From Rhodospirillales bacterium (lineage in GTDB: Bacteria; Pseudomonadota; Alphaproteobacteria; BOG-932; Roseiterribacteraceae): a stretch of DNA of 61,443 nucleotides. The position numbers and the translations under genes are program-made. Shown here in pieces: positions 2,720 to 19,366 of the stretch; within the stretch, counting starts at the first letter, position 1; each line of letters opens with the position of its first letter. The notes below the pieces were generated by a model, which searched no databases, was not told where the DNA came from, and saw nothing but the letters and a program-made list of their open reading frames with translations. Location: positions 1 to 61,443 of the forward strand of contig PLTD01000083.1 of assembly GCA_003165335.1 (NCBI GenBank). The letters run 5' to 3'.

Positions 2720-3234
2720 TGGGCGTCGATGGTGCCGCCGGAAAGTGGGTGTGTCACGACACCGGCTCCCTGCACCGCCATCCGGCGTCGAATCGTTGGG
2801 TCGGCCCTGACGAACACCAGTAACGGGGAAGATTTCCCCCAAAAGACCCGGAGCCGGCAGTTGGCCGGAGGTCCCATTTACCTCGGCAAATGGCAGATCT
2901 CGGTCAGCGCGGTTGAACGGGTTCATTGTGGCGCGGTTTTCACGGCTAACTATAAATCGCCTGATCGGAAATATCCGCTCCATACGTTCCAATCGGCGAT
3001 CGTTCTGCTTTCCGTCACTTTGCGAAGGGGAGGCGGCCAAGCCATTCAGTTGAGTGATGGCAGCGCGCGAAAGCGGTCTTTGGGAGCTACCGCTCGATGC
3101 CACTCGAGCCAGCCGCCTAATGCGCATTAGCCTTAGACTGCCTAGTGCCAGTGGCTCAAACAGTTGATATGGGTCAATGGAGCGCTTTGCCAAATGACGT
3201 CAGTTAGGTTTGAATCGTGAAGCAGGAGGCGACG
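2720..3234. other. Intergenic stretch without a convincing gene
   Basis: Where kdpE would be expected after kdpD there is about 0.5 kb in which both strands have open frames of 130-170 codons, but neither shows a recognisable motif, a sensible start or any resemblance to a response regulator. I read it as rearrangement debris. Confidence 0.5.
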
Positions 3235-3546
3235 ATGTATTATAAATACTTCCGTGAACGCGCGTCCTTGTGCCGTCGCTCCGCCGAGGGAACGAACGCG
3301 TGGCTTTCGGAAGTGTCCCTAGAATTGGCGGTCATGTTCGAAGAGATGGCGGAGGACGCTTTAATCCGCGAACTCAGCCGCCGAAGCGAGGCCACTGCGG
3401 TGGCGGCCGGACTGAAAGCGCAACGTCCCATGCAACCAGACGCAGCGACGCTGCAGAGCCGGGCCTCCCCCTGGTGGCGGATAGGATGCGACCGACCGAG
3501 GGAAAGGCGGCCCGTGCATCCAACGAGCGCGATTGAATGCATCTGA
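3235..3546 (+). CDS. Small hypothetical protein
   Basis: Possible 103-aa protein. The ATG at 3235 follows an AGGAGG at 3224-3229 with ideal spacing, which is the main support. The first 50 residues (MYYKYFRERASLCRRSAEG onward) look like a short two-helix protein of the kind common in alphaproteobacteria, where an F-R-E-R-A-x-x-C-R pattern is followed by an acidic helix. The C-terminal half is arginine- and proline-rich and looks like read-through, so the original gene may have ended earlier or been frameshifted. Function unknown. Confidence 0.4.
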   Translation: MYYKYFRERASLCRRSAEGTNAWLSEVSLELAVMFEEMAEDALIRELSRRSEATAVAAGLKAQRPMQPDAATLQSRASPWWRIGCDRPRERRPVHPTSAIECI

Positions 3547-3721
3547 GCGTAAACCATAGGGCGGTCTTTTATTTCTCGTTTGCAACTTTGCGCTGCGGGG
3601 CCCATGGATTTTTTATGCCGAAATGGTCAGCTTTCACTCATGCCCGACTGCATAGAAGCGAAACGATATCGGCCCTCCGTGCCGCTGAGTCTCAATTGGC
3701 TGGTGTCATGAACTTGGTTTC

Positions 3722-5455
3722 GTGCCAGTGAGCGCCGCCGGTTGGGGACAGATCGGCCTACTCGCGCTCCTCGTCGCCGCTCTGGTGAGGCCGCTGGGTG
3801 GCTATATCGGCCGCGTCTATGCCGGTGAGCCGACGGTGTTACGGCCGGTTCTGAAGCCGGTTGAGTCGGCTATCTACCGATTAGCGGGCGTTGATACCGC
3901 GACCGAGCAGACCTGGTCTTCCTATACCGTTTCTCTACTCATCTTCAACGCGGTCGGAGCGGTCGTGCTATACGCCCTGTTACGCCTGCAGGAGCTGCTG
4001 CCGCTCAATGGACAAGCATTCCCGGCGGCGTCTCCGGATCTGTCGCTCGACACGGCGGTCAGCTTCGTTTCCAACACCAGCTGGCAATCCTATGCCGGCG
4101 AGACGACCTTGTCTTACCTATCCCAGATGGTGGGAATAGCCGTCCAGAGCTTCCTGTCCGCGGCGACCGGCATGGCGGTCGCGATGGCGCTGATCCGCGG
4201 AATCGCGCGCCGGGCTACCGAGACGATCGGCAATTTCTGGGCCGACCTGACGCGCGGCGTGCTTTACGTGCTGTTGCCTATCTCGATTGTGGCAGCGCTG
4301 TTCTTCATGTTCGAGGGCGTGCCGCAGACGCTGGAGCCATTTGTGGCGGCGCATACGATCACGGGTGACATACAGCTAATCGCGCGCGGTCCTGTCGCCA
4401 GCCAGGAGGCGATCAAGCTGCTAAGCGGCGACGGCGGCGGATTCTTCAACGTCAACTCGGCCCATCCGTTCGAAAACCCGACGGCGCTGACCAATCTCAT
4501 CGAAATGGTCCTGATGATGACGATCGGCGCAGCGCTAACCAACACGTTCGGCCGCATGGTCGGCAACGAAAAGCAGGGCTGGGCCGTGTTTGCGGCGATG
4601 GCATTGTTGTTCGCGCTTGGCACCGCCGGACTGAACGTGGCCGAACTCGACGGCAATCCGGCCTTCACGCCGCTCGGCGTCGACCAGGCGGCGGGCCCGC
4701 TGCAGCCGGGCGGAAACATGGAAGGCAAAGAGGTACGCTTCGGCATCGGCGGATCGGCGCTGTTCGCCGAGCTTTCGACCGCATCCTCCGACGGCGCGGT
4801 CAATGCGATGCATGACAGCTTCATGCCGCTCAGCGGCGCGATCCTGATGGCCAACATGATGGTCGACGAGGTGATCTTCGGTGCCCCCGGCTCTGGCCTG
4901 TGGGGGATGCTGCTCTTCGCCTTTGTGAGCGTATTCCTTGCCGGCCTGATGATCGGACGGACGCCGGAATTCATCGGCAAGAAGATCGAAGAGCGGGAGA
5001 TCAAGATGACCGCACTCGCTCTGCTCGTCGCGCCCGCCGCGATCTTGGGGCTGACGGCGGTGGCAAGCGTGATCGCGCCTGGCTTGGCGGGGCCGGCCAA
5101 TTTCGGACCGCACGGCTTCTCCGAAATCCTTTATGGCTTCACCTCGGCCGCAGCCACCAACGGAAGCGCCTTTGCCGGACTTTCGGCGAACTCGCCCTTC
5201 TACAATGTGACGCTGGCGCTCGCGATGTTCGCGGGCCGCTATCTGGTGATCGTTCCGGTGCTGGCGATTGCCGGATCGCTCGCCGCCAAAGGCGCTGCGC
5301 CGCGCAGCGCCGGCACGCTGCCGACCGATGGCGCGCTCTTCGCCCTGTTGCTTGCCGGCACTATCGTGATTGTCGGCGGACTCAGTTTCTTTCCCTCTTT
5401 GGCGCTAGGCCCGATCGTCGAGCATTTCGCCATGCAGACAGGGCTGACCTACTGA
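3722..5455 (+). CDS. kdpA: Potassium-transporting ATPase subunit KdpA (orphan)
   Basis: K+-conducting channel-like subunit of the KdpFABC P-type ATPase, inner membrane, full length at about 577 aa. Visible family signatures: NTSWQSYAGETTLSYLSQM, GGGFFNVNSAHPFENPTALTN, VDEVIFGAPGSGLWGML and FTSAAATNGSAFAGLSANS, corresponding to the four selectivity-filter repeats. Two filters depart from the common form: SGDGGGFFN where GTNGGGFFN is usual, and ATNGSAFAG where NNNGSAFAG is usual. Start is a GTG at 3722, or the in-frame GTG at 3728; neither has a clear ribosome-binding site. No kdpF precedes it, and directly downstream lies convergent hflX rather than kdpB/kdpC, so no pump can be assembled from this locus alone. 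Identity sure, functionality doubtful. Confidence 0.93.
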   Translation: MPVSAAGWGQIGLLALLVAALVRPLGGYIGRVYAGEPTVLRPVLKPVESAIYRLAGVDTATEQTWSSYTVSLLIFNAVGAVVLYALLRLQELLPLNGQAFPAASPDLSLDTAVSFVSNTSWQSYAGETTLSYLSQMVGIAVQSFLSAATGMAVAMALIRGIARRATETIGNFWADLTRGVLYVLLPISIVAALFFMFEGVPQTLEPFVAAHTITGDIQLIARGPVASQEAIKLLSGDGGGFFNVNSAHPFENPTALTNLIEMVLMMTIGAALTNTFGRMVGNEKQGWAVFAAMALLFALGTAGLNVAELDGNPAFTPLGVDQAAGPLQPGGNMEGKEVRFGIGGSALFAELSTASSDGAVNAMHDSFMPLSGAILMANMMVDEVIFGAPGSGLWGMLLFAFVSVFLAGLMIGRTPEFIGKKIEEREIKMTALALLVAPAAILGLTAVASVIAPGLAGPANFGPHGFSEILYGFTSAAATNGSAFAGLSANSPFYNVTLALAMFAGRYLVIVPVLAIAGSLAAKGAAPRSAGTLPTDGALFALLLAGTIVIVGGLSFFPSLALGPIVEHFAMQTGLTY

Positions 5456-5476
5456 AAGCCGAATAGTCGGGAGGCC

Positions 5477-6838
5477 TTAGGAACCCGCGAGTGTCCGCCT
5501 CAGCCGTGCGATCGCGGCGGGAAGACCGCGCACGGTCATGATCCTGCCGGTGGCGTCATAATCCTGAGACAGCACGCGTGCATTCTCGTATATTTCGCCA
5601 AGCAGCCCCTGTTTCGCGTAGGGCAGGGTCAGCTGTTCGTCGACCATCGACGCCTCGAAGAACGCAATAATGGTCTCGCGCAATGCGGCCACATCCTCGG
5701 GCCGCTTGGACGAGAGGAGGATCGCGTCAGGATGCTTGGCCTGCAGGTGGGCGCGATCCTCGTCGCTCACCCGATCGATCTTGTTGAGGATCAAGCGTGA
5801 CGGCACAACGTCCGCCCCGATCTCGCGCAGTACCTCGCGCGTGACCTCGAGCTGCGAGAGGTAGGTCGGATCGGAGGCGTCGACGACATAGAGCAGCAAG
5901 GAGGCCTCAAGCGCCTCGGCCAATGTGGAGCGGAACGAGGCGACCAGATCGTGGGGCAGCTTCTTGATGAAGCCGACCGTATCGGCAACCAGTACGCGCG
6001 GGCTCGCCTCCGGCTGCAATGCCCGCACCGTCGTGTCGAGCGTCGCAAACAGCTGGTTCGCCACCAGCACATCGCTGCCGGTGAGGGCGCGCATCAGGGA
6101 CGATTTCCCGGCGTTGGTGTAACCGACCAGCGCGACACGCAACTGGTCCCGGCGACCAGACCGGCGTTGGTCGTTTTCCTTCTGGGTAGCCTCAAGCTGC
6201 TCCTTCAACTCCGCCAGACGATCCCGGATCGCGCGCCGTTCGAGATCGAGATCGGATTCGCCCGCCCCGGCACCCTGTTGCCGACCGCCACCGGAAGCCG
6301 ATTCTCGCAGGCGTGGGGCGATATATTTCAGGCGCGCGATTTCGACTTGGAGCTTGGCCTCACGGCTGTGCGCATGGCGATGGAAGATTTCCATGATCAC
6401 GCCGGTCCGGTCGAGCACCTTGGCCCCGGTGGCACGTTCCAGATTGCGAATCTGGCTGGGCGAGATTTCGTGATCGACGATAACAAAATCCGGTTTCAGC
6501 GGCGCATCAGGTTCGGTCTCGGCGGAAGGCGGTTCAGGGGCCGTCGTTTCGGCGGATTCGATACGTTCACGCGCCTTCGTCGTATTTTTAGGCGCCATCG
6601 ATGCGACGACGCCCGTTCCGCCGGTTATCGCGGCAAGATCCTCAAGCCGGCCCTTACCGAGCACGGTCGCGCCGCTCACCCCGTCGCGTTTCTGCGACAG
6701 AGTGCCGACGACCTCGTATCCCAGCGTCTTCACGAGATGACCCAGTTCTTCCAGGCTTGCGGCAAGAACGGCATCGTCCACGCCGGGAAGCTGAATACCG
6801 ACCAGGATCGCGCGCTGCACAGGTGGTTTTGTGTCCAT
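5477..6838 (-). CDS. hflX: Ribosome-dissociating GTPase HflX
   Basis: GTPase of the Obg-HflX superfamily that splits stalled or stress-hibernating ribosomes. Seen: N-terminal HflX domain with GKGRLEDL and the glycine-rich SASGGGRQQGAGAGESDLD linker, a helical ERRAIRDRLAELK segment, then the G domain with G1 GYTNAGKSS, G3 DTVGFIKKLP and G4 NKID. About 453 aa from the ATG at 6838; an in-frame GTG at 6853 would add five residues and neither start has a strong ribosome-binding site. An unusual acidic/proline-rich insert (about residues 90-115, rich in E, P and T) splits the N-terminal domain. It converges on kdpA with 21 bp between stops. hfq, its common neighbour, is absent upstream. Confidence 0.95.
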   Translation of the reverse strand: MDTKPPVQRAILVGIQLPGVDDAVLAASLEELGHLVKTLGYEVVGTLSQKRDGVSGATVLGKGRLEDLAAITGGTGVVASMAPKNTTKARERIESAETTAPEPPSAETEPDAPLKPDFVIVDHEISPSQIRNLERATGAKVLDRTGVIMEIFHRHAHSREAKLQVEIARLKYIAPRLRESASGGGRQQGAGAGESDLDLERRAIRDRLAELKEQLEATQKENDQRRSGRRDQLRVALVGYTNAGKSSLMRALTGSDVLVANQLFATLDTTVRALQPEASPRVLVADTVGFIKKLPHDLVASFRSTLAEALEASLLLYVVDASDPTYLSQLEVTREVLREIGADVVPSRLILNKIDRVSDEDRAHLQAKHPDAILLSSKRPEDVAALRETIIAFFEASMVDEQLTLPYAKQGLLGEIYENARVLSQDYDATGRIMTVRGLPAAIARLRRTLAGS

Positions 6839-6934
6839 GATGGATGACGTCACACGAATTGCGCCGGGGCGCCAGTAGTATGCTGAAAATGCGATCGCCG
6901 GCTGTTCGACTGCGTCTCTGTTATGGGCTCGGCT

Positions 6935-7539: not shown

Positions 7540-8529
7540 TCACGATGCCCACCGCTCTGACGTCGCGACCGGACGATGCGCGACAAGCAGCAAGTGGGCC
7601 GCATGCTCCATAAAACGCGGGCTCGCGCCATAGGCGTCCTCGATCCGGGAAAGCTCGCTGTCGAACTGATCGTCGGCCAGCGCCGGGACCAGGGGGTTCC
7701 AACGCGGGTCCAGCGCAAAGCGGCTATGGAACAGGTCCAGTCCGCGCAGCGTCTCGATCTCGAAATCATGCGCGAAATAACCGCGTAGTTCCGATGCCGA
7801 GAACAGGTGGATATTCATGGTGAAGCACCGCCCATCGCACAGTTCGACCCGGCAGCGGTCAAGAATATTGTCCTGGCGGAATTGCTGCGCGTTCTCGACC
7901 GTATCCACGAACACCGAAGGCGGGCTACCGATCGGGCGGACCGTGGCGACAAAGAAGCCTCGGGTAACCCGCGCAAGCTCCCGGGCGATCCAGGGAAGGC
8001 GTATGACCTCCAGATGGCTCAGAACGCTATAGAGGCAGATTGTCAGATCGACCGACTTGTCATTTTCAGGCAGCCGATCGCACAGATCGGCGACTTCGAA
8101 TGTCAGTGCGACTTCGGGCAGATCGCTCAAGTCGCGCGACAGTAGCCGCGCCCGCTCCACCTGGGCCCCGGCGATGTCAAAGCCGCGGGCGGATATCCGG
8201 GAAAAGCCGAGGCTATGCGCGCGGGTCACCAGTCGGCGCAGCCACGTGCCCGGGCCGCAGCCTGCATCGAGAATCCGGATCTCGCATCGGCCGGCGGCGC
8301 GTAGCGCCACCAGCTTGGCGTCGAGCACCTCCCATAGGCAGCGGTCGGCATAAGCGTGCGGGCCATCGAAGGCGAAAAGCTGATGCGGGTCACCGTCGGC
8401 ATAAGCGGCATAGCCTGCGCCGGCCTGATTATAAATTGCGGCGACGCCCTGTCCTGGGTTGGCGCGGGCCAACCGAGCTGCCGCGGCGACGTCACGCTCA
8501 GGCACGATCCGAATGTTCGGGTTAACCAT
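7540..8529 (-). CDS. Class I SAM-dependent methyltransferase
   Basis: Soluble 329-aa methyltransferase of unknown substrate. The Rossmann fold is clear: motif I ILDAGCGPGTWLRRLV, an acidic ARGFDIAGAQVERAR after strand 2, a FEVADLCDRLP motif and SVDLTICLYSVLSHL motif IV. The start at ATG 8529 is preferred over upstream in-frame codons because it overlaps by 8 nt the end of the 72-aa gene transcribed just before it, giving translational coupling. The N-terminal 60 residues (ARLARANPGQGVAAIYNQAG) precede the fold and may recognise the acceptor. It sits in a gene-poor accessory stretch; no pathway neighbours point to a substrate. Confidence 0.8.
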   Translation of the reverse strand: MVNPNIRIVPERDVAAAARLARANPGQGVAAIYNQAGAGYAAYADGDPHQLFAFDGPHAYADRCLWEVLDAKLVALRAAGRCEIRILDAGCGPGTWLRRLVTRAHSLGFSRISARGFDIAGAQVERARLLSRDLSDLPEVALTFEVADLCDRLPENDKSVDLTICLYSVLSHLEVIRLPWIARELARVTRGFFVATVRPIGSPPSVFVDTVENAQQFRQDNILDRCRVELCDGRCFTMNIHLFSASELRGYFAHDFEIETLRGLDLFHSRFALDPRWNPLVPALADDQFDSELSRIEDAYGASPRFMEHAAHLLLVAHRPVATSERWAS

Positions 8530-8740
8530 TGTTGGATACTGTTTCGAGTTCGATGGGGTAAGGCACCAGAATGGCTGCGTACTGGCGGCCATGATTCAGT
8601 GTTGCGAAACGCGTGGCTTCGGCGCGGCTGGTAAATAGACCACCGCGCAAGCCTAATGGGTCGCGGACGACCCAGAGCCCCCGCCTGTTCTTGCCGACCA
8701 GCAAAGCAGGAGAGCGGAAATATGCCAAGATTTGCTCCAT
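8522..8740 (-). CDS. Small hypothetical protein coupled to methyltransferase
   Basis: 72-aa protein. The centre, NRRGLWVVRDPLGLRGGLFTSRAEA-type (W-V-V-R-D, G-G-x-F-x-S-R-A-E-A-x-R-F-A), resembles a short beta-hairpin-plus-helix protein often seen in alphaproteobacteria and annotated only as hypothetical. Its TAA at 8522-8524 lies inside the first codons of the methyltransferase, so the two are almost certainly co-transcribed and coupled. Function unknown. Confidence 0.6.
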   Translation of the reverse strand: MEQILAYFRSPALLVGKNRRGLWVVRDPLGLRGGLFTSRAEATRFATLNHGRQYAAILVPYPIELETVSNNG

Positions 8741-9348
8741 TGACGAGTCACGCCGGAAACGGCCGCTCTACAGAAGTAAAATCGGCGCCATAAAAAATCG
8801 AGGAGACAAAAGTCTGTATATTATAAACGAGAAATAATAATGACGTTTTTACTAAAGCGAACCCTTGAGGCGATGAAGACTGAGGGTCCGAGCTCTGTGG
8901 CCAAACCTTGCGTTGACCATCATCAAGCTTCGGGCAATATCGATCTACGGTGGACAGAAGAAGGCCTGCGGAAAGCTCCCAATTTCTGCATGTCGACAGA
9001 GTTGGATAGTTTTTCCAGAAAGCCGACGTCGTTGCCACAGGGGCCGTAGCAGTTGCAGCAGGACATAGTCCTTGTCGTCATGTTCCTCCAGCAAAACTGG
9101 CCACCGGCAAGGAATGCCCTAGTCGAGCTTGAACAAGCGCTTAAAAACTCCATGTCAAAGTCAATAATAAATTATAAAGACCCTATAAAATTGCAAATGC
9201 GCAATATTGTTTTAGGTCTTCCTCCGGTCGGTTAAGGCTCTCGTTCTTTATAAATATCGCATTCGCTTGATATAGAATTTTTACGGCCATACGTGCTTCC
9301 TAGACGACACCCATCCATAAACGGGGTCGCAGCGGCCCAAAAGTTATC
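8741..9348. other. AT-rich gene-poor stretch
   Basis: About 600 bp, distinctly richer in A and T than the surroundings (for instance around 8800-8840 and 9150-9280). Short frames exist on both strands but overlap one another and show no motif or start signal. It marks the low-GC accessory interval between the methyltransferase pair and vapBC. Confidence 0.5.
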
Positions 9349-9600
9349 ATGAGCGATCTGTCATTTGTTCCAAATTACAAGAAGACTAAAGTGTCGCCTC
9401 CAGCGATTGGAACGGATTGTGGTAAGACTTTCTTAGCAAAAACCTCCGCACTCAACTTGTGCGGCGTGCGGACTAAGCTGGGCCGTAAAGCGATTGAGCC
9501 GGCCCAGCTATTTCGTGGTGAAGAAGTTGTACTGCTGGCGAGGCGAGAACCAGATCAAGCTATAGTTGGCCAGCGAACCCACTTGAACGAAGTACTGTGA
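9349..9600 (+). CDS. Diverged paralog of the 82-aa hypothetical
   Basis: 83-aa frame, MSDLSFVPNYKKTKVSPPAI at the start, recognisably related to the protein at 6935-7183 across roughly 60 residues (about 24 identical positions by eye, densest in the first 35). After the L-x-R-G position the two diverge completely, which suggests this copy has been truncated or frameshifted. It lies in inverse orientation 2.2 kb away. It may be a decaying duplicate rather than a working gene. Confidence 0.4.
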   Translation: MSDLSFVPNYKKTKVSPPAIGTDCGKTFLAKTSALNLCGVRTKLGRKAIEPAQLFRGEEVVLLARREPDQAIVGQRTHLNEVL

Positions 9601-9832
9601 TGGCACGACAATGATCTCGTTTGGAGGTTTGCCTCGTTTTTTGCGTTCGAACCTGCGTTGTTTGGTCGTCTTTTGCACTGCCGTTTATACCAATGCTCAC
9701 GCAGGAGCCATTAAAGCTACTCGGCAACAGGCCCTGGCCAATGCGCTAAACTTTCTCCTAATTCCTCCCGCACCGACGCTGCCCAGTGTCCGCATCGTCG
9801 ACCGGTGACCTGACACGACTCCATATTGCAAG

Positions 9833-10069
9833 ATGCAAATCGATCGAAGTTGGGTAATTGTCATACACTTTGTCTGGACCGTTGCCATTTCTGGGTACGC
9901 GTTTGGAATCCGTAGCCTCTGGTTTGATTTGATAATTTTGGCAAACGCCGCCGCCGCCGCCGCCGTCGCCATGTTTCGAGGTGAAAAATACGGAATATTA
10001 AAAGTTACTTTGTGGGACGAGGTTTTGGGCTTTGTCACCGTTATGGTCTTAGCGCACTTGTTCTATTAG
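9833..10069 (+). CDS. Possible small membrane protein
   Basis: 78-aa frame with three hydrophobic stretches (VIVIHFVWTVAISGYAF, FDLIILANAAAAAAVAMF, VLGFVTVMVLAHLFY). The alanine run is encoded by a GCC-rich tract near 9945-9970. No strong ribosome-binding site precedes the ATG and I do not recognise the family. The regular spacing of membrane-like segments is the only support. Confidence 0.35.
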   Translation: MQIDRSWVIVIHFVWTVAISGYAFGIRSLWFDLIILANAAAAAAVAMFRGEKYGILKVTLWDEVLGFVTVMVLAHLFY

Positions 10070-10200
10070 AGTCAGCGCTTGGGATTCAATGGAGGCTGGC
10101 TGTTGTCGCCGTTGAAGTGATATTCGGTAAAAGTGGTTTCCTGGACCCTTATCCTTCCGGCCCCACAACCTGCACATTGCCCCCAGCGGCATGGCGTTAG

Positions 10201-10260
10201 ACCCAATCGACAAGAGATTCGCCAAAGTGGTAATGGCCAATTCCTTCCCCGGGCACCATT
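10201..10260. repeat. 60-bp direct repeat, left copy
   Basis: Matches 11580-11639 at 53 of 60 positions, same orientation, 1379 bp apart, including an identical AAAGTGGTAATGGCCAA core and an identical TCCCCGGGCACCATT end. On the minus strand both copies read as the same protein tail, M-V-P-G-[ED]-G-[IF]-G-H-Y-H-F-x-E-S-L-V-x-W-V followed at once by a stop, so they may be the 3' ends of two decayed copies of one gene. The CCCCGGGCACCA end also resembles a tRNA 3' end; I cannot decide between these readings. Confidence 0.8.
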
Positions 10261-10281
10261 TCCCTGATAGCGTTTGGGCGT

Positions 10282-10686
10282 TTACTGCGCAGCTTCCAAG
10301 AAGGGGTTGCGGATCGTCAGCCCGCCGATAATGCGGCCATGCTGCATGTCCTCGGAATAAAGAATGTCGCAGCCGGCTTCGACGGCGGCGGCGACGACCA
10401 GGGCGTCATAAAATGCAAGGCCGTGGCTGCGGGCGAGCGCAACGGCGCTCGTGTGGGTGTCGAGCGTCAGGGGCCGCACAGCGTCGAAAGATAAGCGAAA
10501 TTGGCTTAAGGCAAGCTCGATATCCGGCCAGTCATGTTTCAACTTGCGGCGCGCGACGCTCACGAATTCATTGAGGACCTGCACCGAGACCACTCCCCCG
10601 CCGCGCAAGACACGGTCGGCCTGCATTTTTCGAGGATCGGACGTGACGGTGTAGACGAGCACGTTCGTGTCGAAGAAGGCCGTCAT
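10282..10686 (-). CDS. vapC: PIN-domain ribonuclease toxin (VapC family)
   Basis: 134-aa PIN-domain protein, expected to be a Mg2+-dependent RNase acting as the toxin of a type II toxin-antitoxin pair. The acidic active-site set is visible: Asp6 in FFDTNVLVY, Glu40 in LNEFVSVAR, Asp94 in FYDALVVAAA and Asp113 in LYSEDMQHG. The start overlaps the antitoxin stop by 4 nt, the usual arrangement. It lies in the low-GC accessory stretch between two direct repeats, suggesting acquisition. The RNA target cannot be told from sequence. Confidence 0.9.
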   Translation of the reverse strand: MTAFFDTNVLVYTVTSDPRKMQADRVLRGGGVVSVQVLNEFVSVARRKLKHDWPDIELALSQFRLSFDAVRPLTLDTHTSAVALARSHGLAFYDALVVAAAVEAGCDILYSEDMQHGRIIGGLTIRNPFLEAAQ

Positions 10687-10916
10687 CGCTCATTGGCCTC
10701 GTCCCGATCGAACCTATAGTCGTCGGGCAAGGTCCAATTCAGTGAAGCCAGCCGATCGAGCGCACGCCGGCGCCGCTGTTCTTTTGTTTCGACCGCGATG
10801 GACGCGTCTTTCGCGGCTACCACGTTCAACTCGTCGCCGGCTTTTAGCCCCAGCTCATCCACCAGCGCCTTGGGCAGCCGCACGGCCAAGCTGTTGCCCC
10901 ATTTCGAAACCTGCAT
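10683..10916 (-). CDS. vapB: AbrB/MazE-type antitoxin partner of VapC
   Basis: 77-aa antitoxin. The N-terminal half is an AbrB swapped-hairpin DNA-binding domain: MQVSKWGNSLAVRLPKALVD followed by LGLKAGDELNVV. The C-terminal half, rich in arginine then acidic (QRRRRALDRL, LPDDYRFDRDEANER), is the expected toxin-binding tail. It is first in the pair and overlaps vapC by 4 nt. Autoregulation is likely through the palindromes directly upstream at 10926-10969. Confidence 0.9.
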   Translation of the reverse strand: MQVSKWGNSLAVRLPKALVDELGLKAGDELNVVAAKDASIAVETKEQRRRRALDRLASLNWTLPDDYRFDRDEANER

Positions 10917-10925
10917 GTCCGCCTC

Positions 10926-10969
10926 GATGATATCTAATATTTATTGTATATCATGATATGGATATCATC
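10926..10969. promoter_or_regulatory. Palindromic operator/promoter of vapBC
   Basis: AT-rich region immediately upstream of vapB. Outer arms GATGATATC (10926-10934) and GATATCATC (10961-10969) form a perfect 9-bp inverted repeat; inside lies a perfect 12-bp palindrome ATATCATGATAT (10948-10959). AbrB-type antitoxins bind such sites to repress their own operon, so this is the likely operator. Binding itself is inferred. Confidence 0.65.
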
Positions 10970-11055
10970 GGATTTCAAGGCATCGCGAGCACGGGATCGG
11001 CGCGCCGGCTTTTGGGGCTCTGCTTTTGCCTATACCCGCCGCTCGCAACGCGCGA

Positions 11056-11128
11056 GTCCGGGAAGCTCAGTTGGTAGAACAGGCGATTGAAAATCACCGT
11101 GTCGGGTGTTCAAATCCGCCCCTAGACG
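11056..11128 (+). pseudogene. Decayed tRNA-Phe (GAA) remnant
   Basis: Reads along its length like a tRNA-Phe: acceptor GTCCGGG, GCTCAGTTGGTAGAAC D-arm, anticodon loop TTGAAAA with GAA, GTGTC variable region, T-arm with TTCAAAT and acceptor CCTAGAC. Pairing is damaged: C-A mismatch in the acceptor, GCTC against GAAC in the D stem, C-A in the anticodon stem and two mismatches in the T stem. No encoded CCA. It therefore looks like a dead copy, perhaps left by an element that integrated at a tRNA-Phe gene. Confidence 0.65.
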
Positions 11129-11579
11129 GAACGCTCAGTGTTGTCTGGTCCGGACACATTATCTCTTCAAAAGTCCGTATCCTGAGCGAGCTGTTCTCTG
11201 AACAGCGGGAGAGGCTGGGGTCTGGTGGCCACCCAGACGCCAGCGGCGCTGGATAGATCGTGGACACATAGGGTTTTGGCACCCGTACCTATCAGGGTTC
11301 ATCCAGAGCCCTCGCCTTGTCACTTGCAGAGTTGGAGTGGCGCCGACGGGTTTGCGTCGTTTCATGTATAACTGCGCCGCTTGACGGCGATTTCCAGCAA
11401 TTCGCGTTTGCTGATAATCATCCGTTGGTCGCCCACATTTGTTCGACCGTTTTGAACTGGGTCAGGGACATGAGCGGGCACCCCAGCGTAACCGCCTCAG
11501 ATTGCCTTCCGTAGGGAGCGTCGGGCTAGCCGGTCTGCCCGCGCACCACCTCCTCATCGGTGCCGGGTCATCGTATCAA

Positions 11580-11639
11580 ACCCATACGACGAGAGATTCA
11601 TCAAAGTGGTAATGGCCAAATCCGTCCCCGGGCACCATT
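11580..11639. repeat. 60-bp direct repeat, right copy
   Basis: Partner of 10201-10260 (7 mismatches in 60). On the minus strand this copy lies at the end of an open frame of about 50 codons that stops right after the W-V of the shared tail, which favours a gene-fragment origin. With the left copy it brackets vapBC and the tRNA relic. Confidence 0.8.
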
Positions 11640-11765
11640 CGCCGTGCGACTCCATTTTGTACCGCAGTCTCAATTTTGCTGGCGTGAGCCCCGTCGCCTG
11701 GGGTACGCCTGTAGAATGACGAACGGCGCTTCAGATCGCCGAATCATCTCCAGGAGGAATTTGGG

Positions 11766-13886
11766 GTGTCCACAGGTTTTCCGCATTTGATGTCGCCGGG
11801 CCGCATCGGCTCGCTGCAGCTTAAGAACCGAATTTTCATGACCGCCATGGGCGATAATCTCGCCGAGGACGACGGCATGTGCGGGGCGCGGACGCGCGCC
11901 TATTACGCCGCACGGGCCAAGGGCGGTGCGGCGCTGCTGACGGTCGGATCGGTGTCCGTCGGCTATCCGGTCGGATCGAACTGCCAGTTCCAGGTCGCTC
12001 TATCGGGCGACCGGCATATACCGTCGATCAAGGGCGTCGCCGACGTGGTGCACGAGCATGGGGCCAAGTTGGCTCTCCAGCTGCATTTCGGCGGGCTGGT
12101 CGCGATGACGGATATGAAGGAGGGACGGCCGGTCTGGTGTCCATCCGTACCTCTGCCGCCCAAGCCCGGCGACGTCATCGACGGGTTCCTGCCGGAAGAA
12201 TTGGCCCAGGCCGATTTCGCCCAGGTGAAGGATGTTCAGTTCAAAGTCATGACGGCGCAGGACGCCGAGCATCTGATTCAAATGTTCGCCGATGCCGCAG
12301 CCCGCGCAAAAGAGGCGGGGGCCGACGGCGTGGAACTGCACGGCGGCCACGGCTATATTTTTTCGTCCTTTATTTCGCCCGCCAGCAACCGGCGCACCGA
12401 CGAATATGGCGGCCCGCTGGAGAATCGCGCCCGGCTTCTGCTGGATGCGGTCAAGGCGGTGCGCTCCCAAGTGGGCCAGGATTATCCCGTTTGGTGCAAG
12501 ATCGACGAGGAAGAATTCGGCAAGGAAGACGGCATCCGGATCGAGGATGCCCAAAAGCTCGCAAAGCTGTTGCAGGAGGCCGGGGTCGATGCGATCACCG
12601 CCTCATCCTATGCCGACCAGTCCCAGGGCAAATATCATTCGGGCTCCAACATACCGCATAAGCCGGAACTGATGATTCCGGGCGCCATCGCCATCAAATC
12701 GGTGCTGGATATCCCGGTCATCACATCGGGCCGGATCGAACCGGAGGCGGCGGAGAAATATATCGGCGAGGGCAAATTCGATTTCGTCGCGATGGGCCGC
12801 AAGCTGTTGGCCGACCCGGAATTGCCGAACAAGCTGAAAGCCGGCAAGCCCGAGGATGTGAGGCCCTGCATCTATTGCTATGCATGCGTCAGCCAGATCT
12901 ATTTCAGCAAGAACGTCAAATGCGCGGTCAATCCCGAGACGGCGTTCGAGCGCGAACGGGCGATCGGATCGGGCGGCCATAAGCATGTGGTGGTCATCGG
13001 CGGCGGCCCCGGTGGCATGGAGAGTGCGCGGCGTCTTGCGCTGAAAGGGCATAAGGTCACGCTGCTGGAGCAGTCGGACCGGTTGGGCGGCACAGTGCAG
13101 TTCGCCTCTATCGCCTATGCACCGAACGAGCGGATATTGAACTGGCTGAAGCGCCAAGTCGCGGCGCTGCCGATCGACGTGAAGTTGAAAACCTCGGCGA
13201 CCCCTGAACTGCTAAAGTCGCTGAACCCCGACGAAGTGGTGGTGGCGACAGGTGCGATCCGCACTATGCCGCCGATCCCCGGCAGCGACCGGGCGAATGT
13301 GTTCAGCGGCGATGAGATGCGCAGCCTGGTGCTGGGCGAAAATCTGGATAGCCTGAAAGGCAAGACGAGCTGGACGACGCGCATCGCAGCCAAGGCCGGT
13401 TCATTCACCGGCGTGACGCGCAGCCCCGAGCTGATCCGTGAGGCGACAAAGGCCTGGATGCCGCTAGGCGATAAGATCGTCATCATCGGCGGGGAGCTTG
13501 TGGGCGTTGAGCTCGCCGAATTCCTGGCCGAACGCGGCCGCAAGGTGACGGTGGTGGACGAAGCTCCGCGTCTTGGCGCTGGGCTTCATATCGTCCGCCG
13601 CTGGCGGGCCTTGTCGGAGGCGCGCGACCTGGGCGTCGTGTTGCTGCCCGGCATGAAGGATATCGCCATCGGCGCCGACCGTGTGACCTTCTCCGACGCC
13701 GATGGGCTCAGTCATGTCGTCGAGGCGGATAATGTCATCGTCGCCAAAGGTGCAACCGGCAATCTGGCCTTGGCCGAATCACTCGCCGCCGCCGGATTCA
13801 AGGTTCATACGGTGGGTGATTGCAACGGTGTAGGCTATATCGAAGGCGCCATTGCCGGCGCTGCAGATGTGGCGATGGCGATTTGA
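11766..13886 (+). CDS. Old-Yellow-Enzyme-type FMN/FAD/Fe-S oxidoreductase
   Basis: 706-aa flavoenzyme of the 2,4-dienoyl-CoA reductase / 2-enoate reductase group, which reduces C=C bonds conjugated to a carbonyl using NAD(P)H. Seen: N-terminal OYE TIM barrel (about 1-370) with SPGRIGSLQLKNRIFMTAM and DGVELHGGHGYIFSSFISP, a cysteine cluster CIYCYACVSQ plus a later Cys for a [4Fe-4S] centre, an FAD-binding VVVIGGGPGGMESARRLA and a second Rossmann motif IVIIGGELVGVELAEFLAERG. Start is a GTG with AGGAGG upstream. The substrate is unknown; relatives act on unsaturated fatty acyl-CoAs, steroids or bile acids. The following Gfo/Idh gene and distant acyl-CoA genes do not settle it. Confidence 0.88.
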   Translation: MSTGFPHLMSPGRIGSLQLKNRIFMTAMGDNLAEDDGMCGARTRAYYAARAKGGAALLTVGSVSVGYPVGSNCQFQVALSGDRHIPSIKGVADVVHEHGAKLALQLHFGGLVAMTDMKEGRPVWCPSVPLPPKPGDVIDGFLPEELAQADFAQVKDVQFKVMTAQDAEHLIQMFADAAARAKEAGADGVELHGGHGYIFSSFISPASNRRTDEYGGPLENRARLLLDAVKAVRSQVGQDYPVWCKIDEEEFGKEDGIRIEDAQKLAKLLQEAGVDAITASSYADQSQGKYHSGSNIPHKPELMIPGAIAIKSVLDIPVITSGRIEPEAAEKYIGEGKFDFVAMGRKLLADPELPNKLKAGKPEDVRPCIYCYACVSQIYFSKNVKCAVNPETAFERERAIGSGGHKHVVVIGGGPGGMESARRLALKGHKVTLLEQSDRLGGTVQFASIAYAPNERILNWLKRQVAALPIDVKLKTSATPELLKSLNPDEVVVATGAIRTMPPIPGSDRANVFSGDEMRSLVLGENLDSLKGKTSWTTRIAAKAGSFTGVTRSPELIREATKAWMPLGDKIVIIGGELVGVELAEFLAERGRKVTVVDEAPRLGAGLHIVRRWRALSEARDLGVVLLPGMKDIAIGADRVTFSDADGLSHVVEADNVIVAKGATGNLALAESLAAAGFKVHTVGDCNGVGYIEGAIAGAADVAMAI

Positions 13887-13904
13887 GTTAAGGGAATTTG
13901 GATA

Positions 13905-14052
13905 CCAAGACGCTAAGGCACCAAGGAATCATATCGTTATTGCGAGGAGTGCAGCGACGAAGCAATCCAGGACTGCCGGTGCTTGAAACTTTGGAATGCT
14001 TCGCTGCGCTCGCAATGACGATCAGTACCAACTTGGCGCCTTGTGATCTTGG
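13905..14052. repeat. Nested inverted repeat (REP/MITE-like)
   Basis: Between two co-directional genes. Outer arms at 13905-13925 and 14032-14052 are inverted copies (CCAAGACGCTAAGGCACCAAG against CTTGGCGCCTTGTGATCTTGG, 4-5 mismatches). Inside, ATTGCGAGGAGTGCAGCGA (from about 13939) pairs with TCGCTGCGCTCGCAAT (ending about 14017). The inner unit is the kind of dispersed palindromic repeat seen repeatedly in sphingomonad genomes. No coding content. Confidence 0.7.
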
Positions 14053-14124
14053 TGGTTCTCTTCGCTTTCGTCGGACAGGCTGAGCGGTAGCCGTATCGAT
14101 GCCCGAAACCCCAAGGAAGTTTGC

Positions 14125-15108
14125 ATGCTGCGCATAGGATTGTTGGGTGCGGCGAAGATTGCGCCGATGGCGATTGTTGCGCCGGTCAAGCAGGTTCCGG
14201 AGGCGAGTCTGGTGGCTGTTGCGGCGCGAGACCTTCTGCGGGCGCGGGAGTTCGCGGCCAAAAGCGGGATCAAACGCGTCCATAAAAGCTATGACGCGAT
14301 GATCGACGACCCTGAGATCGACGCGCTTTATATCCCGTTGCCCAACGGACTCCATGGGAAATGGGCGATCAAGGCGCTGCGCGCGGGTAAACATGTGCTG
14401 TGCGAAAAGCCGATCGCGGCCAATGCCGAGGAGGCCGAGGCGATGGCCCAGGCGTCGCGTGAGACCGGCAAGGTTCTGATGGAGGCGTTTCATTACCGCT
14501 ATCATCCGCTGGCCCAGCGGATGGTCGATATCGTGGCGAGCGGGGAGCTGGGAACCATTCAACATATCCAGTCGACCATGTGCTTCCCGCTGCCGATCTT
14601 CAAAGACATCCGATATAATTTCGGCCTGGCCGGCGGGGCGATGATGGATGCCGGCTGCTATGCGGTTCATATGGCGCGCCTGATCGGCGGGCCGGACCCG
14701 GAGGTAGTGTCGGCGGTGCCGAAACTACGCGACGCCAAAGTCGATCGGGCGATGGAGGCGCAATTGCGCTTCAAATCCGGCGCAACCGGCACGGTGTCAG
14801 TTTCGATGTGGTCATGGAAGCTGCTCAATATCTCGCTGCGCGTTACCGGCAGCCTGGGCGAGATGCGGGTCATCAACCCCGTCGCGCCCCAAGCCTGGCA
14901 CCGGCTGACGGTCAAGACCGAGAAGATGAAGCGCAGCGAAAACCTGGGCAGGCGCCCGACCTATCTCTATCAGCTGGAAGCCTTTGTGAAGGCCTGCCTG
15001 CACGGTGGCCCGATCCTGACCTCGGCCGAAGACGGGGTGAAGAACATGGCGGTGATCGATGCCATCTACCGCGCGGCGGGGATGCCGGTGCGGCAGCCGA
15101 CGGCCTAA
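14125..15108 (+). CDS. Gfo/Idh/MocA-family oxidoreductase
   Basis: 327-aa NAD(P)-dependent dehydrogenase. N-terminal Rossmann fold with LRIGLLGAAKIAPMAIVAPV, the family motif CEKPIAANAEEA (EKP, catalytic Lys about 95), and a C-terminal beta-sheet domain with GGAMMDAGCYAVHMARLIGG. AAGGAAG lies upstream of the ATG. Members oxidise or reduce sugars, inositols or related alcohols; substrate here unknown. Its TAA overlaps the stop of the convergent EAL-PAS-GGDEF gene by three bases. Confidence 0.88.
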   Translation: MLRIGLLGAAKIAPMAIVAPVKQVPEASLVAVAARDLLRAREFAAKSGIKRVHKSYDAMIDDPEIDALYIPLPNGLHGKWAIKALRAGKHVLCEKPIAANAEEAEAMAQASRETGKVLMEAFHYRYHPLAQRMVDIVASGELGTIQHIQSTMCFPLPIFKDIRYNFGLAGGAMMDAGCYAVHMARLIGGPDPEVVSAVPKLRDAKVDRAMEAQLRFKSGATGTVSVSMWSWKLLNISLRVTGSLGEMRVINPVAPQAWHRLTVKTEKMKRSENLGRRPTYLYQLEAFVKACLHGGPILTSAEDGVKNMAVIDAIYRAAGMPVRQPTA

Positions 15109-16955
15109 CCTACGGTTTCAGGAATTTTCAGCGCTCGGCGGGTCGATTTCGATGCCTGGATTCGGACGCGGTTGCGGCCGGTGCGCTTGGCGACATACAT
15201 CGCGGAGTCGGCCCGCTCCATCAAAGTTGCGACGGTGTCGCCAGGGCTATAGCAGGCCACACCGAGACTGACGGTGATGTTCGCAGGGCCCACCGGCGTA
15301 TCAAATGCGTCCCCCGCGACAGCGCAGCGCAAGCGTTCCGCGAGCGCTCTTGCGTCCTGCAGGGCGACGGCGGGCATGCACACCGCGAATTCCTCGCCCC
15401 CGATACGACCGATAATATCCAAACGGCGGACATTCTCGGCCAGACAGTCAGCCATGCCGCAAAGGACGGCGTCGCCCACCGCATGGCCGCGTTCGTCGTT
15501 GACGCGTTTGAACTGGTCGATGTCGATGAAGGCCAGGCAGGGCCCCTTTACATTGGACGCGGTAAGCCCGCGCGCAACGGCGGCATCGCACTCGGATTTC
15601 ATTGCCCGCAGAAACGCGCGCCGGTTGGGAATGCCGGTCAGCGTGTCGCGGTCGGCCAGATGTTCCAACTCGTCCAGACGGCGCTTATCCAGCGTCACAT
15701 CGCGTTCTATCGCGGCAAAATGCGTGATCTTGCCCTGGGCATCGCGCAGCGGGACGATGTGCATATCAAGCCAATAGGGTGCACCGGATTTGCCGAAGTT
15801 CAATATCTTCTCGTGCACAGGGCGTCCCGCCCGTAACGACGCGTGAACAACGTCCAGCGTCGCGCGGCTGGTCCCTGGTCCTTGCAGGATGCGGGGGGAT
15901 AGTCCCAGCGCCTCGGCGGCGGTGTAGCCGGTCAATCGTGTGAAAGCCGGATTGACGTAGGTTATTATCGGACCCGGCGCCTCGAGATCGGCCGTAGTGA
16001 CCAAAATAATGTCATTCGCCGTCTCGGCGATCTGCAGAAACGGAATAGGTTGCAATAGCGGCTGTTGTGCATCGCCCATCACATTTTCGCTGTATATATT
16101 CAACCGGCGCAGCAAGTCGGGAATATTTCGTACCGTTTCGAGCGTGTCGGCCAGGGGTTGCGGCTTGCCGAGCAGATATCCCTGAATTTCCGTGCAGTTG
16201 GCCTGCATCAGCGTCGCCAGTTGTTCCTTGGTCTCCACGCCTTCCGCCAAGCAGATTATCTTGAGATCTTTGCAAAGTCCGATGATCGAACGCACGATCG
16301 TGATGGCCGCCTCATGACGATGCTCGTCCAGCGGAAGCTTACCGGTGAACGACCGGTCGATCTTGATTTTGGAAAAGGGGAAATTGAGTAGATAGCCGAG
16401 CGCGGAAAAGCCGATGTCGAAATCGTCCATCACAATTCCGACCCCGGAATCTCGGATCGCGCGCAGAACCGCCAGTGTGACGGGATCGTCCGGCATCATC
16501 TTCGTCTCGGTCACCTCCAATTCCAGCCTGGACGGTGAAAGACCGGCGGCGGCAAGGGTCGCGGCAACGACTGCGGGCAGGGAAATGTCCGCAATTTGAA
16601 GCGCCGAGACATTGACTGCGACCCCAACGTCTTCAGGCCAACTCATTGCCTCCCGGCACGCTCGCTCCAAAACCCACTGACCGATTTCACCGATAAGGCC
16701 GATTTCCTCTGCCAGCAGGATGAATTCGGCAGGTGGTACATCTCCGCGCTGAGGGTGATGCCAGCGTATCAGGGCTTCAAAAGTCGTAACGCGCCCGGTC
16801 CGCAGATCGACCTGTGGCTGGTACGCGATGTCGAAACCCTTGGTGGCGCATACTTCCCGCAGGTCTCTCTCAAATACCAGCCTGGCGTTAGGGTCCTCTG
16901 CGACAGATTCGGGTTCGCGCGCGATCGGTTCCGGTTGGGAATGCGGGTCGGCCAT
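15105..16955 (-). CDS. EAL-PAS-GGDEF cyclic-di-GMP protein
   Basis: 616-aa cytosolic c-di-GMP enzyme with domains in the order EAL (about 25-265), PAS (about 290-400), GGDEF (about 430-595). EAL residues are largely present: FEALIRW, NVSALQI, LELEVTETKMM, MDDFDIGFSALGYL (usual form DDFGTG), IKIDRSF, LAEGVET and IQGYLLGKP, so phosphodiesterase activity is plausible. The GGDEF site is GGEEF with an RRLD inhibitory-site motif five residues before it, so cyclase activity with product feedback is also plausible. Start at ATG 16955, chosen because CTCCT complement (AGGAG) sits just upstream; an upstream frame extension to 17012 lacks such a signal. The PAS would sense redox, light or ligand. Confidence 0.9.
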   Translation of the reverse strand: MADPHSQPEPIAREPESVAEDPNARLVFERDLREVCATKGFDIAYQPQVDLRTGRVTTFEALIRWHHPQRGDVPPAEFILLAEEIGLIGEIGQWVLERACREAMSWPEDVGVAVNVSALQIADISLPAVVAATLAAAGLSPSRLELEVTETKMMPDDPVTLAVLRAIRDSGVGIVMDDFDIGFSALGYLLNFPFSKIKIDRSFTGKLPLDEHRHEAAITIVRSIIGLCKDLKIICLAEGVETKEQLATLMQANCTEIQGYLLGKPQPLADTLETVRNIPDLLRRLNIYSENVMGDAQQPLLQPIPFLQIAETANDIILVTTADLEAPGPIITYVNPAFTRLTGYTAAEALGLSPRILQGPGTSRATLDVVHASLRAGRPVHEKILNFGKSGAPYWLDMHIVPLRDAQGKITHFAAIERDVTLDKRRLDELEHLADRDTLTGIPNRRAFLRAMKSECDAAVARGLTASNVKGPCLAFIDIDQFKRVNDERGHAVGDAVLCGMADCLAENVRRLDIIGRIGGEEFAVCMPAVALQDARALAERLRCAVAGDAFDTPVGPANITVSLGVACYSPGDTVATLMERADSAMYVAKRTGRNRVRIQASKSTRRALKIPETVG

Positions 16956-17122
16956 GTGTGCTCCTCTAAGCCCGCAGTCAGCCATGGGCGATGCCACCGT
17001 TTGGGGGCTCACCCGCCAAGTCGAGAGTCAGCTCGAATGCCGGTATCTACGCAGCCGCCGGCGGATCGTCCCGGGTGCACTTATGAAGGTTCCCAATCAA
17101 GCCCGACATCCTCGGAAAATAC

Positions 17123-18727
17123 TCACGTGGGGTTGCGTCCTCGCAACTCCGCCCGCTTTACCTTGCCCGTGGGGGTCTTGGGCAGGTCGGGGACAAATTC
17201 GAACAGAGCCGGCATCTTGTACTCGTCGCCGCCGTCGAACTTAGCGCGCAACGATGCGATCAGAGAATCATCCGCCTTCACGCCCGGCCTCACGACGACG
17301 AACGCCTTGATGACGTGACCGAGGTCCGCGTCGGGATGGGCGACGGCGGCTGCTTCGACGACAGCGGGGTGTTCGACCAGCAGGCTTTCGACTTCGAAGG
17401 GGCCAATGCGCAAGGGGCCGGTGATGATGACGTCGTCGGCGCGGCCGACAAACCAGTAGAAGCCTTCATCGTCGTAACTTGCGCGGTCGCCGGTCAGGTA
17501 CCAGTCGCCGCGTTTGCAGTTGGCGGTGGCCTCAGGGTTTTTCCAATATTCCATGAAGAGGCCCGGGGCAGGGTATTTGACCGCGAGGTCGCCGGGCGTC
17601 TGAGGACCGAGTTCGGTTCCATGCTCATCGATGACCGCAACGTGATAGCCGGGCACAGGCAGGCCCATCGAGCCGGTGCGCTCGGGTAGGCCGGCCAGAT
17701 TGGCGATCAAGAGGCCAGCTTCGCTCTGGCCGTAGCCGTCACGGATGGTGACGCCGGTCGCCGCCTTCCAGGCGCGGATGACCTCGGGGTTCAGCGGTTC
17801 GCCCGCCGCTACGCATTGGCGGAGTTTGGGTAGTTTTACGCCGTCCATCCCATGCTTCACCATCAGACGGTATTGGGTTGGCGGGGCGCAGAACACGTCG
17901 GGCGCCAGCGATTCGAGCAGGGCCAGTTCCTCGGCCGGGTTGAAAGCGCTGTTGACGATGACGATCTCGGCGCCAACCGACCAAGGGCCGAATGCGGCCT
18001 TTGCCCAGCCAGTCGTCGGCCAGAAGCGGTCGGTCGGACGAATGCCGTGCCAGATCGAGGCCTGGCGGGTACCGGTATAGGTATAGGTGTGGTTGTGCAA
18101 CACAGCCTTAGGCTTTCCGGTGGTGCCGGAGGTGTAGAAGACCAGGGCAGGGTCGGTGGTCAGCGTATCGCAGCCCGTGGAGGGCGTGGCGGCCGCGACG
18201 GCGGCATTGAAATCGATCCAGCCGGGTGGGGCTATCTCACCGGGGTTCACGACGACCAGGAAATGTTTCACCGACGGTATTTCGGGACGAAGCTGATCCA
18301 GCATGGGCACTGCGTCCGGAGTCGCGACCACGACCGAGGCTTCGCTGTGGTTGACTCGGTGCTGAATGTCGCGCGGGCTCAAGACCGCCATCGAGGTCGG
18401 GACCGCGACGGCGCCCGATGCCAGCGTGCCGACTGTCGCCACCTGCCATTCGGGGATGCGCGGCAGCAGAACGATGACCCGTTCTCCGCGGCCGACGTCC
18501 AGAGCCTCCAGCAGACCGGCGAAGCGGTGAATCCGATTGCTCATCTCAGCAAAAGTAATGCTAGTTTCGCTCCCTTGCGCGTCGCGATAGAGGGTCGCCG
18601 GCCGCGCCGGGTCAGCAGCGAAACGGTCGACCACATCGCGGGCAAAATTGAAGGCGCGCGGCACCTCCCAGACAAAGTCGTCTCTGCGGCGCCGGTAATC
18701 GTCGAGCGCGGTTACGAGTTCAGACAT
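17123..18727 (-). CDS. AMP-binding acyl-CoA synthetase
   Basis: 534-aa adenylate-forming ligase that activates a carboxylic acid with ATP and CoA. Seen: A3 motif VFYTSGTTGKPKAVLHNH (about 197), GYGQSEAGL, YLTGDRASYD (about 412) and the C-terminal catalytic-lysine motif PKTPTGKVKRAELRG. The N-terminus (FVWEVPRAFNFARDVVDRF) is typical of the medium-chain/benzoate-like ACSM type. Monocistronic and divergent from the cyclophilin gene. Substrate chain length or aromaticity cannot be read from the sequence. Confidence 0.9.
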   Translation of the reverse strand: MSELVTALDDYRRRRDDFVWEVPRAFNFARDVVDRFAADPARPATLYRDAQGSETSITFAEMSNRIHRFAGLLEALDVGRGERVIVLLPRIPEWQVATVGTLASGAVAVPTSMAVLSPRDIQHRVNHSEASVVVATPDAVPMLDQLRPEIPSVKHFLVVVNPGEIAPPGWIDFNAAVAAATPSTGCDTLTTDPALVFYTSGTTGKPKAVLHNHTYTYTGTRQASIWHGIRPTDRFWPTTGWAKAAFGPWSVGAEIVIVNSAFNPAEELALLESLAPDVFCAPPTQYRLMVKHGMDGVKLPKLRQCVAAGEPLNPEVIRAWKAATGVTIRDGYGQSEAGLLIANLAGLPERTGSMGLPVPGYHVAVIDEHGTELGPQTPGDLAVKYPAPGLFMEYWKNPEATANCKRGDWYLTGDRASYDDEGFYWFVGRADDVIITGPLRIGPFEVESLLVEHPAVVEAAAVAHPDADLGHVIKAFVVVRPGVKADDSLIASLRAKFDGGDEYKMPALFEFVPDLPKTPTGKVKRAELRGRNPT

Positions 18728-18879
18728 CTGAATTTATCGACACGGCGTATCGCCTCAAACGGGTGGTGGTGATATCAAGCAGCCATCATCCTCGCTAATG
18801 CGCCATTGCGCTATCCGCCTTTGGCCCCATTTTGTCTAAATCGAAGCTTAGATCGCTTCAGAACTTCAAGAGAGCTATT

Positions 18880-19332: not shown

Positions 19333-19366
19333 GGCTCAATTTACGAAAAGGCGGGGGAGGGACGGA

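Follow-up and report, generated by a model that had tools for sequence, protein, structure and literature searches.

Direct repeats around a toxin-antitoxin pair and a tRNA-Phe relic in a Rhodospirillales bacterium: probable attR scars of serine-recombinase islands at the tRNA-Phe 3' end

What placed a pair of direct repeats around a toxin-antitoxin pair and the remains of a tRNA gene in the genome of a Rhodospirillales bacterium (GenBank assembly GCA_003165335.1)? The repeats lie on contig PLTD01000083.1 (hereafter C4), which was analysed as one stretch of 61,443 nucleotides and is referred to as the window. The original prediction gave two 60-nt repeats matching at 53 positions around 1.3 kb, and our recount of the copies at 10201-10260 and 11580-11639 agreed (53/60 identical positions, about 1.3 kb in between). 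Taken over 71 nt (10190-10260 and 11569-11639), the two direct repeats are 83% identical, and the match between repeat 1 and repeat 2 has an E-value of 1.3e-15 in a search of the 5.19-Mb genome, so that their similarity is far beyond chance. Weak similarity extends leftward to about 105 nt, past the limits first given. We annotated copy 1 at 10158-10260 (plus strand, best conserved over 10201-10260 and weaker leftward) and copy 2 at 11536-11639 (plus strand, best conserved over 11580-11639). To the left, positions 29-6853 hold kdpD and kdpA near the contig start and then an HflX-like GTPase gene on the other strand; neither kdpB nor kdpC appears among the scanned ORFs, and the potassium-transport operon may be incomplete. 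A lower-GC, gene-poor and decayed-looking stretch (8740-10190) contains a short run of CGC repeats at 9946-9968.

Both genes of the toxin-antitoxin pair proposed between the repeats were recognized by Pfam. A PIN-domain, VapC-like toxin is encoded at 10282-10686 on the minus strand (PF01850, E=2.3e-14) and a SpoVT/AbrB (MazE-type), VapB-like antitoxin lies upstream of it at 10683-10916 on the same strand (PF04014, E=4e-14), the two genes overlapping by 4 nt. With a PIN toxin, an upstream AbrB-type antitoxin and overlapping genes, the locus is a predicted VapBC pair, the antitoxin scoring below the cut-off of NCBIfam TIGR02609. The pair is ordinary island cargo. The tRNA-Phe relic was also borne out. 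ARAGORN returned no tRNA in the window, nor did Rfam at its gathering threshold; with an E-value threshold, Rfam placed a tRNA at 11056-11128 on the plus strand, its 28.8 bits falling just short of the gathering score (29), and positions 11022-11122 are 92% identical to the intact tRNA-Phe gene together with 34 bp of its upstream DNA. We annotated 11022-11131 (plus strand) as a decayed tRNA-Phe gene that retains 34 bp from upstream of the intact locus. Site-specific integration copies only the 3' end of a tRNA, so a complete relic with upstream DNA is hard to account for and is not explained by site-specific integration alone.

A genome-wide search for the repeat, proposed with the original prediction, yielded four copies in total rather than the many unrelated sites of an ordinary dispersed repeat: two in the window and two on contig C243 (712-772 and 3776-3847), all four on the plus strand of their contigs, to which a sister genome (G002) adds two. 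The C243 copies form a second pair of the same repeat family. On that contig, positions 712-3847 are a stretch of about 3 kb in which repeats bracket genes for a CLC chloride channel, a DUF1330 protein and a Na/H exchanger, the last of these genes being truncated. Using repeat 2 as a query against 59 genomes including the own genome (E<=0.01), we retrieved the own copies, the two repeats of the sister genome and six other matches (one each in G001, G002, G004, G016, G028 and G054), every one of which is the 3' end of a tRNA-Phe gene according to ARAGORN. A sequence model built from the six repeat copies was searched against five family genomes; its four own-genome and two G002 matches are expected by construction, the remaining six all have E>0.1, and three of these six are tRNA-Phe 3' ends (G001, G002 and G004). 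An integron attC reading of the repeats was rejected by inspection of the six copies, in which the R' and R'' core sites are absent.

The right end of the repeats is the tRNA-Phe 3' end. Exactly the last 12 nt of tRNA-Phe terminate three of the four genomic copies, in the same orientation as in the intact gene, with which gene order in the congener G001 (below) is consistent; in copy 1 this core, CCCCGGGCACCA, spans 10247-10258 next to an arm at 10197-10246, and in copy 2 it spans 11626-11637 next to an arm at 11576-11625 (both on the plus strand), while the core end of the fourth copy (C243, 712-772) is degraded. Allowing at most one mismatch, AATCCNNCCCCGGGCACCA occurs four times in the 5.19 Mb, at the intact tRNA-Phe gene on contig C150 and in three of the four repeats; with up to three mismatches it gives 32 matches and its reversed control 8. 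The two repeats were also said to read as the same protein C-terminus on the minus strand, and they do so as VPGEGIGHYHFGESLVDWV followed by a stop (10197-10256) and VPGDGFGHYHFDESLVVWV followed by a stop (11576-11635), which we annotated as alternative C-terminal tails of a recombinase. All six copies have the terminal stop. Their variable columns by codon position 1, 2 and 3 number 7/14, 5/14 and 12/14 (Fisher p=0.01 for position 3 against positions 1 and 2), a test that is supportive only, as these 42 columns are few and related. Differing codon pairs in the tail comprise 43 synonymous and 79 non-synonymous pairs; one of the six copies (G002, contig C79) has an internal stop, and two have single-base gaps.

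Comparison with the intact tRNA-Phe locus, also suggested at the outset, links the repeat core to the tRNA-Phe 3' end and that end to a recombinase. The intact gene lies at 4166-4241 on C150, and directly behind it, convergent with it, is a broken large serine recombinase gene whose pieces match Resolvase (E=1e-19) and a zinc ribbon (E=5e-7) and no other recombinase domain; the full domain set of a large serine recombinase (Resolvase, Recombinase and zinc ribbon) is present in a homologue from another genome (G125). The last codons of the C150 gene run antisense within the tRNA and read GMVVPGGGFEPPTRRFSVACSTN before the stop (equivalently VGMVVPGGGFEPPTRRFSVACSTN). The repeat peptides are in the same frame as this C-terminus, VVPGGGFEPPTRR: VPGEGIGHYHFGESLVDWV and VPGDGFGHYHFDESLVVWV have the core VPGxG in common with the recombinase and then diverge from the tRNA into a different tail. 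New relative to the original account are the further pair of repeats on C243, the connection with the intact tRNA-Phe gene and the serine recombinase. C150, C243 and C4 are separate contigs, unlinked in the assembly, and their ends have no overlap in common. An erythromycin-esterase family gene (PF05139) at 721-2094 on C150, a few hundred bases past the broken recombinase, is probably island cargo. No recombinase DNA was detected after any of the four own-genome repeats, and a tblastn search (E<=1) of the stretch from the relic to repeat 2 and of 8740-10190 for recombinase remnants returned only the tRNA read antisense. Decayed ORFs scanned in two sets (10 and 4) gave only sub-cut-off matches in Pfam and none in PHROGs.

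Family genomes place the same locus in context. In the sister genome, contig C118 carries a tRNA-Phe gene with a recombinase remnant in the same place (77-78% nucleotide identity), and on contig C79 the repeat at 649-711 abuts the decayed C-terminus of a recombinase, as would be expected for an attP site or a tandem array; this C79 copy is the only repeat-recombinase junction found. A recombinase-like C-terminal fragment suspected by eye before the repeat on C139 of the same genome had no Pfam match and is not claimed. In a congener (G001), no recombinase was matched at tRNA-Phe (E<=1e-15), while RNase G-like (56% amino acid identity) and yacG-like (70%) genes lie upstream of the tRNA, as on C150. 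Besides the displaced tRNA 3' end, two further features of a tDNA island are in place, an integrase gene beside an intact tRNA (broken on C150, a remnant on C118) and an empty site in a relative (G001).

The host flank of the window was recognized by comparison with G001; a search for genes in the same order covered five genomes. To the right of repeat 2, at 18832-24498, lie genes for a peptidyl-prolyl isomerase (plus strand) and for an HlyD protein and an RND pump (minus strand), 74, 78 and 82% identical in amino acids to orthologues downstream of the G001 tRNA-Phe gene and in a G001-like orientation relative to the tRNA end. In G001 the isomerase gene lies 1.9 kb downstream of tRNA-Phe, with HlyD and RND later. 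Between tRNA end and isomerase, the DNA amounts to 1.9 kb in G001 as against a block here (11678-18709, right of the outer repeat) of OYE-type flavin oxidoreductase, GFO-IDH-MocA and AMP-ligase genes, so the empty-site junction of G001 is not base-exact. A formate-THF-ligase-like gene stands among the isomerase, HlyD and RND genes in G001 and on another contig here; with this moved gene and the OYE block, which has no G001 counterpart, the flank is rearranged but recognizable. The block is collinear with contig C313 of G002 except for an EAL/GGDEF gene at 15105-17012, where there is no nucleotide match. The G002 OYE gene is preceded by decayed DNA with no Pfam match and no repeat, which leaves unsupported the idea that the OYE gene originally stood next to tRNA-Phe, and in G001, G003 and G004 the best matches are short and no more than 40% identical.

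We consider it probable (roughly 0.86) that the repeats are attR sites left by elements that integrated successively at the tRNA-Phe 3' end by means of a large serine recombinase whose gene extends across the attachment site at its 3' end. The original prediction had offered two readings, ends of duplicated lost genes or att-like scars, and this one favours both at once, as att scars whose common protein tail is the C-terminus of an integrase gene spanning the site. If attP lies inside the recombinase 3' end, the gene ends in the tail on the circle and in the tRNA once integrated. On a circular element, the recombinase would read via the core (the tRNA 3' end in antisense, VPGxG) into the tail GHYHFxESLVxWV and its stop; upon integration it would stay beside the intact tRNA with the tRNA-encoded tail VPGGGFEPPTRRFSVACSTN and a stop, and the old tail and core would remain as attR at the far end. 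Every later insertion would displace the older attR sites farther from the tRNA. The repeats at 10.2 and 11.6 kb would accordingly be successive right boundaries, with repeat 2 (ending at 11639) outermost and repeat 1 (ending at 10260) next, the 1.3 kb between them (PIN/AbrB pair and tRNA relic) a worn outermost unit, and C4:1-11639 the right end of the tRNA-Phe island region. We infer that the contigs are physically linked, that the elements had a circular form, that they inserted in this order and that the ancestral recombinase was active. That the own-genome repeats stand without a recombinase would be explained by loss of the older recombinases, or by cargo units moved in trans.

Two other origins of the repeats were considered. 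A small dispersed intergenic or MITE-like element, non-integrative and matching the tRNA-Phe end by coincidence, would suit short repeats that occur in four copies around unrelated cargo; with only four own copies and two in the sister genome, the 12 terminal nucleotides of tRNA-Phe reproduced exactly in three own copies, the frame of the tRNA-abutting recombinase, a copy joined to the recombinase in G002 and six further matches in 59 genomes that are all tRNA-Phe ends, it is very improbable and largely refuted already. Slightly less probable still are 3' ends of duplicated host genes unrelated to integrases, their bodies since lost: the terminal stop in all six copies and the third-position bias speak for coding ends of some kind, but the frame and the core peptide fit a recombinase that reads into tRNA-Phe, and the C79 copy of G002 retains a recombinase C-terminus beside the repeat.

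Other alternatives concern how the 1.3-kb unit and the relic came about. The unit may be a separate non-autonomous cassette moved in trans by the recombinase, the tRNA-Phe region then being an array like an integron or a composite SCC island. This would fit the two cargo units (1.3 kb and 3.0 kb), each flanked by a pair of att copies that point the same way and each with no detectable recombinase; decay of the recombinase accounts for them equally well, neither unit came up elsewhere as a lone cassette in searches aimed at other features, and in G002 the relic matched the tRNA-Phe gene and one weak site (81%, E=2e-6), so that we regard the cassette as unlikely. Somewhat better placed, if still doubtful, is the idea that the relic is a second, former copy of tRNA-Phe, namely the right-hand copy that remains when a circle with a complete tRNA-Phe gene and its upstream DNA inserts by a single (Campbell-type) crossover, repeat 2 being the attR of an older element at that copy. 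Such a crossover would leave the pattern of the relic, which keeps 34 bp of upstream DNA before breaking into the DNA upstream of the antitoxin gene and sits some 450 nt to the left of the second attR copy, after which comes host flank. Against it, tblastn revealed no recombinase remnant between the relic and repeat 2, the sole match being the tRNA in antisense, and each of four relatives from the family has a single tRNA-Phe locus, or a site of like score, that matches the relic, with weaker matches besides in G001 and G002.

On the preferred reading of successive attR sites, one may go further and suppose that the recombinase has two forms fixed by the state of the DNA, one with the GHYHFxESLVxWV tail on the circle or downstream of another tandem island and one with the tRNA-antisense tail beside the tRNA. 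The tail would then be a switch for the integration state, and arrays would return the native tail to a second recombinase. We hold this extension to be rather unlikely.

Relatives of the recombinase were collected from one bacterial class, with at most three candidates scored per genome, yielding at least 26 matches (E<=1e-100) in 20 of 385 genomes including the own one. A tRNA gene was present in eight of the 26 loci (Thr, Met in five, Glu and Phe) and absent from the other 18. All eight tRNAs are convergent with the recombinase and overlap its aligned 3' end or lie within 50 bp of it, with none elsewhere in those loci. The recombinase frame enters the tRNA in all seven translated cases (six relatives and C150, leaving out the Glu case), and this frame differs in the tRNA-Thr case. 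Contig C43 carries a convergent pair of full-length serine recombinase ORFs from this superfamily, at 8111-9991 (plus strand) and 9398-11464 (minus strand), whose 3' ends overlap; the 20 kb read there contain no tRNA.

We then searched six tRNA-linked elements (in G164, G267, G324, G221, G240 and G125) for right ends. A 20-nt search with up to four mismatches gave none in any of the six. In G164, the terminal 14 nt of tRNA-Met recur without mismatch 44,072 bp away (contig C4 of that genome, from tRNA-Met near 3061723-3061799 to about 3017651), with VAGARNSQSPKFRFCA and a stop in the minus-strand frame. Controls gave no matches at 12 nt exact and at 18 nt (up to three mismatches); the G164 control had one reverse-complement match at 14 nt (up to one mismatch) and at 16 nt (up to two), and looser settings gave some single matches, G164's among them. 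The DNA beyond the G164 right end (AGTTTTAAGCAAACGCCGCCC) matches the DNA directly after tRNA-Met in a relative (G036; AGTTTCCAGCAAACGCCGCCC), further along the two are 87% identical for 1.8 kb, and this flank settles the predicted right end, which we find convincing. In the tail-swap model, the circular junction of this element would join the recombinase codons ...VVAGA to RNSQSPKFRFCA and a stop. The 44-kb tRNA-Met element is a good bench candidate for work on tRNA-targeting serine integrases. The G267 right end (12 nt exact, 90,252 bp away) is weak. For G324, about 100 kb were covered and yielded no right end at 12-18 nt, only one loose 24-nt match with up to seven mismatches; for G221, G240 and G125, where 5-12 kb were available, there was likewise none at 12-18 nt.

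Taken as a whole, the locus represents a variation on a known type of mobile element and nothing wholly new. Staphylococcal SCC elements (CcrAB/CcrC) form composite arrays at the 3' end of one gene, rlmH, whereas the target here is a tRNA. Against NCBIfam, the G125 recombinase scores 92.9 bits for CcrB (E=1.9e-26) and 51.8 bits for CcrC (E=4.8e-14) where the cut-offs are 900, and so is not a member of either. Integron attC sites have a paired RYYYAAC/GTTRRRY arrangement. Like integron cassette arrays, the locus holds cargo between 60-70-bp direct repeats; unlike attC sites, the copies have no such pairs on inspection, and a tRNA end and a serine recombinase explain them. The SSV integrase is of the tyrosine type. 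Integration of phage Mx8 reportedly alters the integrase C-terminus (a finding ascribed to Tojo et al. in 1996), and in the mechanism proposed here integration would likewise change the C-terminus of the recombinase. Mx8 and SSV integrases extend across attP, according to the excerpted text of PMC4383910.

The closest counterparts are the ssrA islands of Dehalococcoides. According to McMurdie et al. (2011, PMC3146451), these tandem islands have direct repeats made up of the RNA 3' end and a conserved adjacent motif, occur with or without a recombinase, and carry at their left end the serine recombinase DsiB (540 residues, a CcrB homologue), the 3' end of whose gene always overlaps attL. The authors suggest that full function of the DsiB gene may require the circular form or a position downstream of a neighbouring island that supplies the 3' fragment (PMC3146451). 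As in the DsiB islands so described, the recombinase 3' end here overlaps attL with its stop in the RNA gene, and the direct repeats have a conserved arm. Unlike those islands, which target ssrA, these occupy tRNA-Phe here and tRNA-Met, Thr and Glu in relatives, and the 3' fragment persists as a recognizable tail peptide in the att repeats. Islands of the Dehalococcoides type also carry a second, small serine recombinase (DsiA) and module genes of the dsiA/mom type. Among Alphaproteobacteria, the Paracoccus phage vB_PamS_Pami6 has a serine recombinase and a predicted tRNA-Met site, the only serine-recombinase phage with a predicted site in the available part of a 2019 paper (PMC6536676), which describes no tail swap or array of the kind seen here. 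In Sinorhizobium hot spots, tyrosine integrases lie at tRNA genes, one of these integrases also resembling a serine recombinase (PMC11476347, in the part available); the available parts of PMC12884075 and PMC12765450 contain nothing on serine integrases at tRNA genes. A literature search that extended to few subscription journals returned no tRNA-Phe serine-recombinase island with direct repeats.

One serine recombinase family, sampled in one bacterial class, is thus found at tRNA-Phe, Met, Thr and Glu, with one well-delimited element of 44 kb. The anatomy of the DsiB islands, in the features compared, is now seen at tRNA genes, with a preserved tail in addition. The repeats supply concrete sequences for a question that McMurdie et al. 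(2011, PMC3146451) raise, namely whether the circle alone, or else a neighbouring island, completes a recombinase that overlaps its own site of attachment. If the tail switch were true, it could, for example, limit re-excision of the innermost island.
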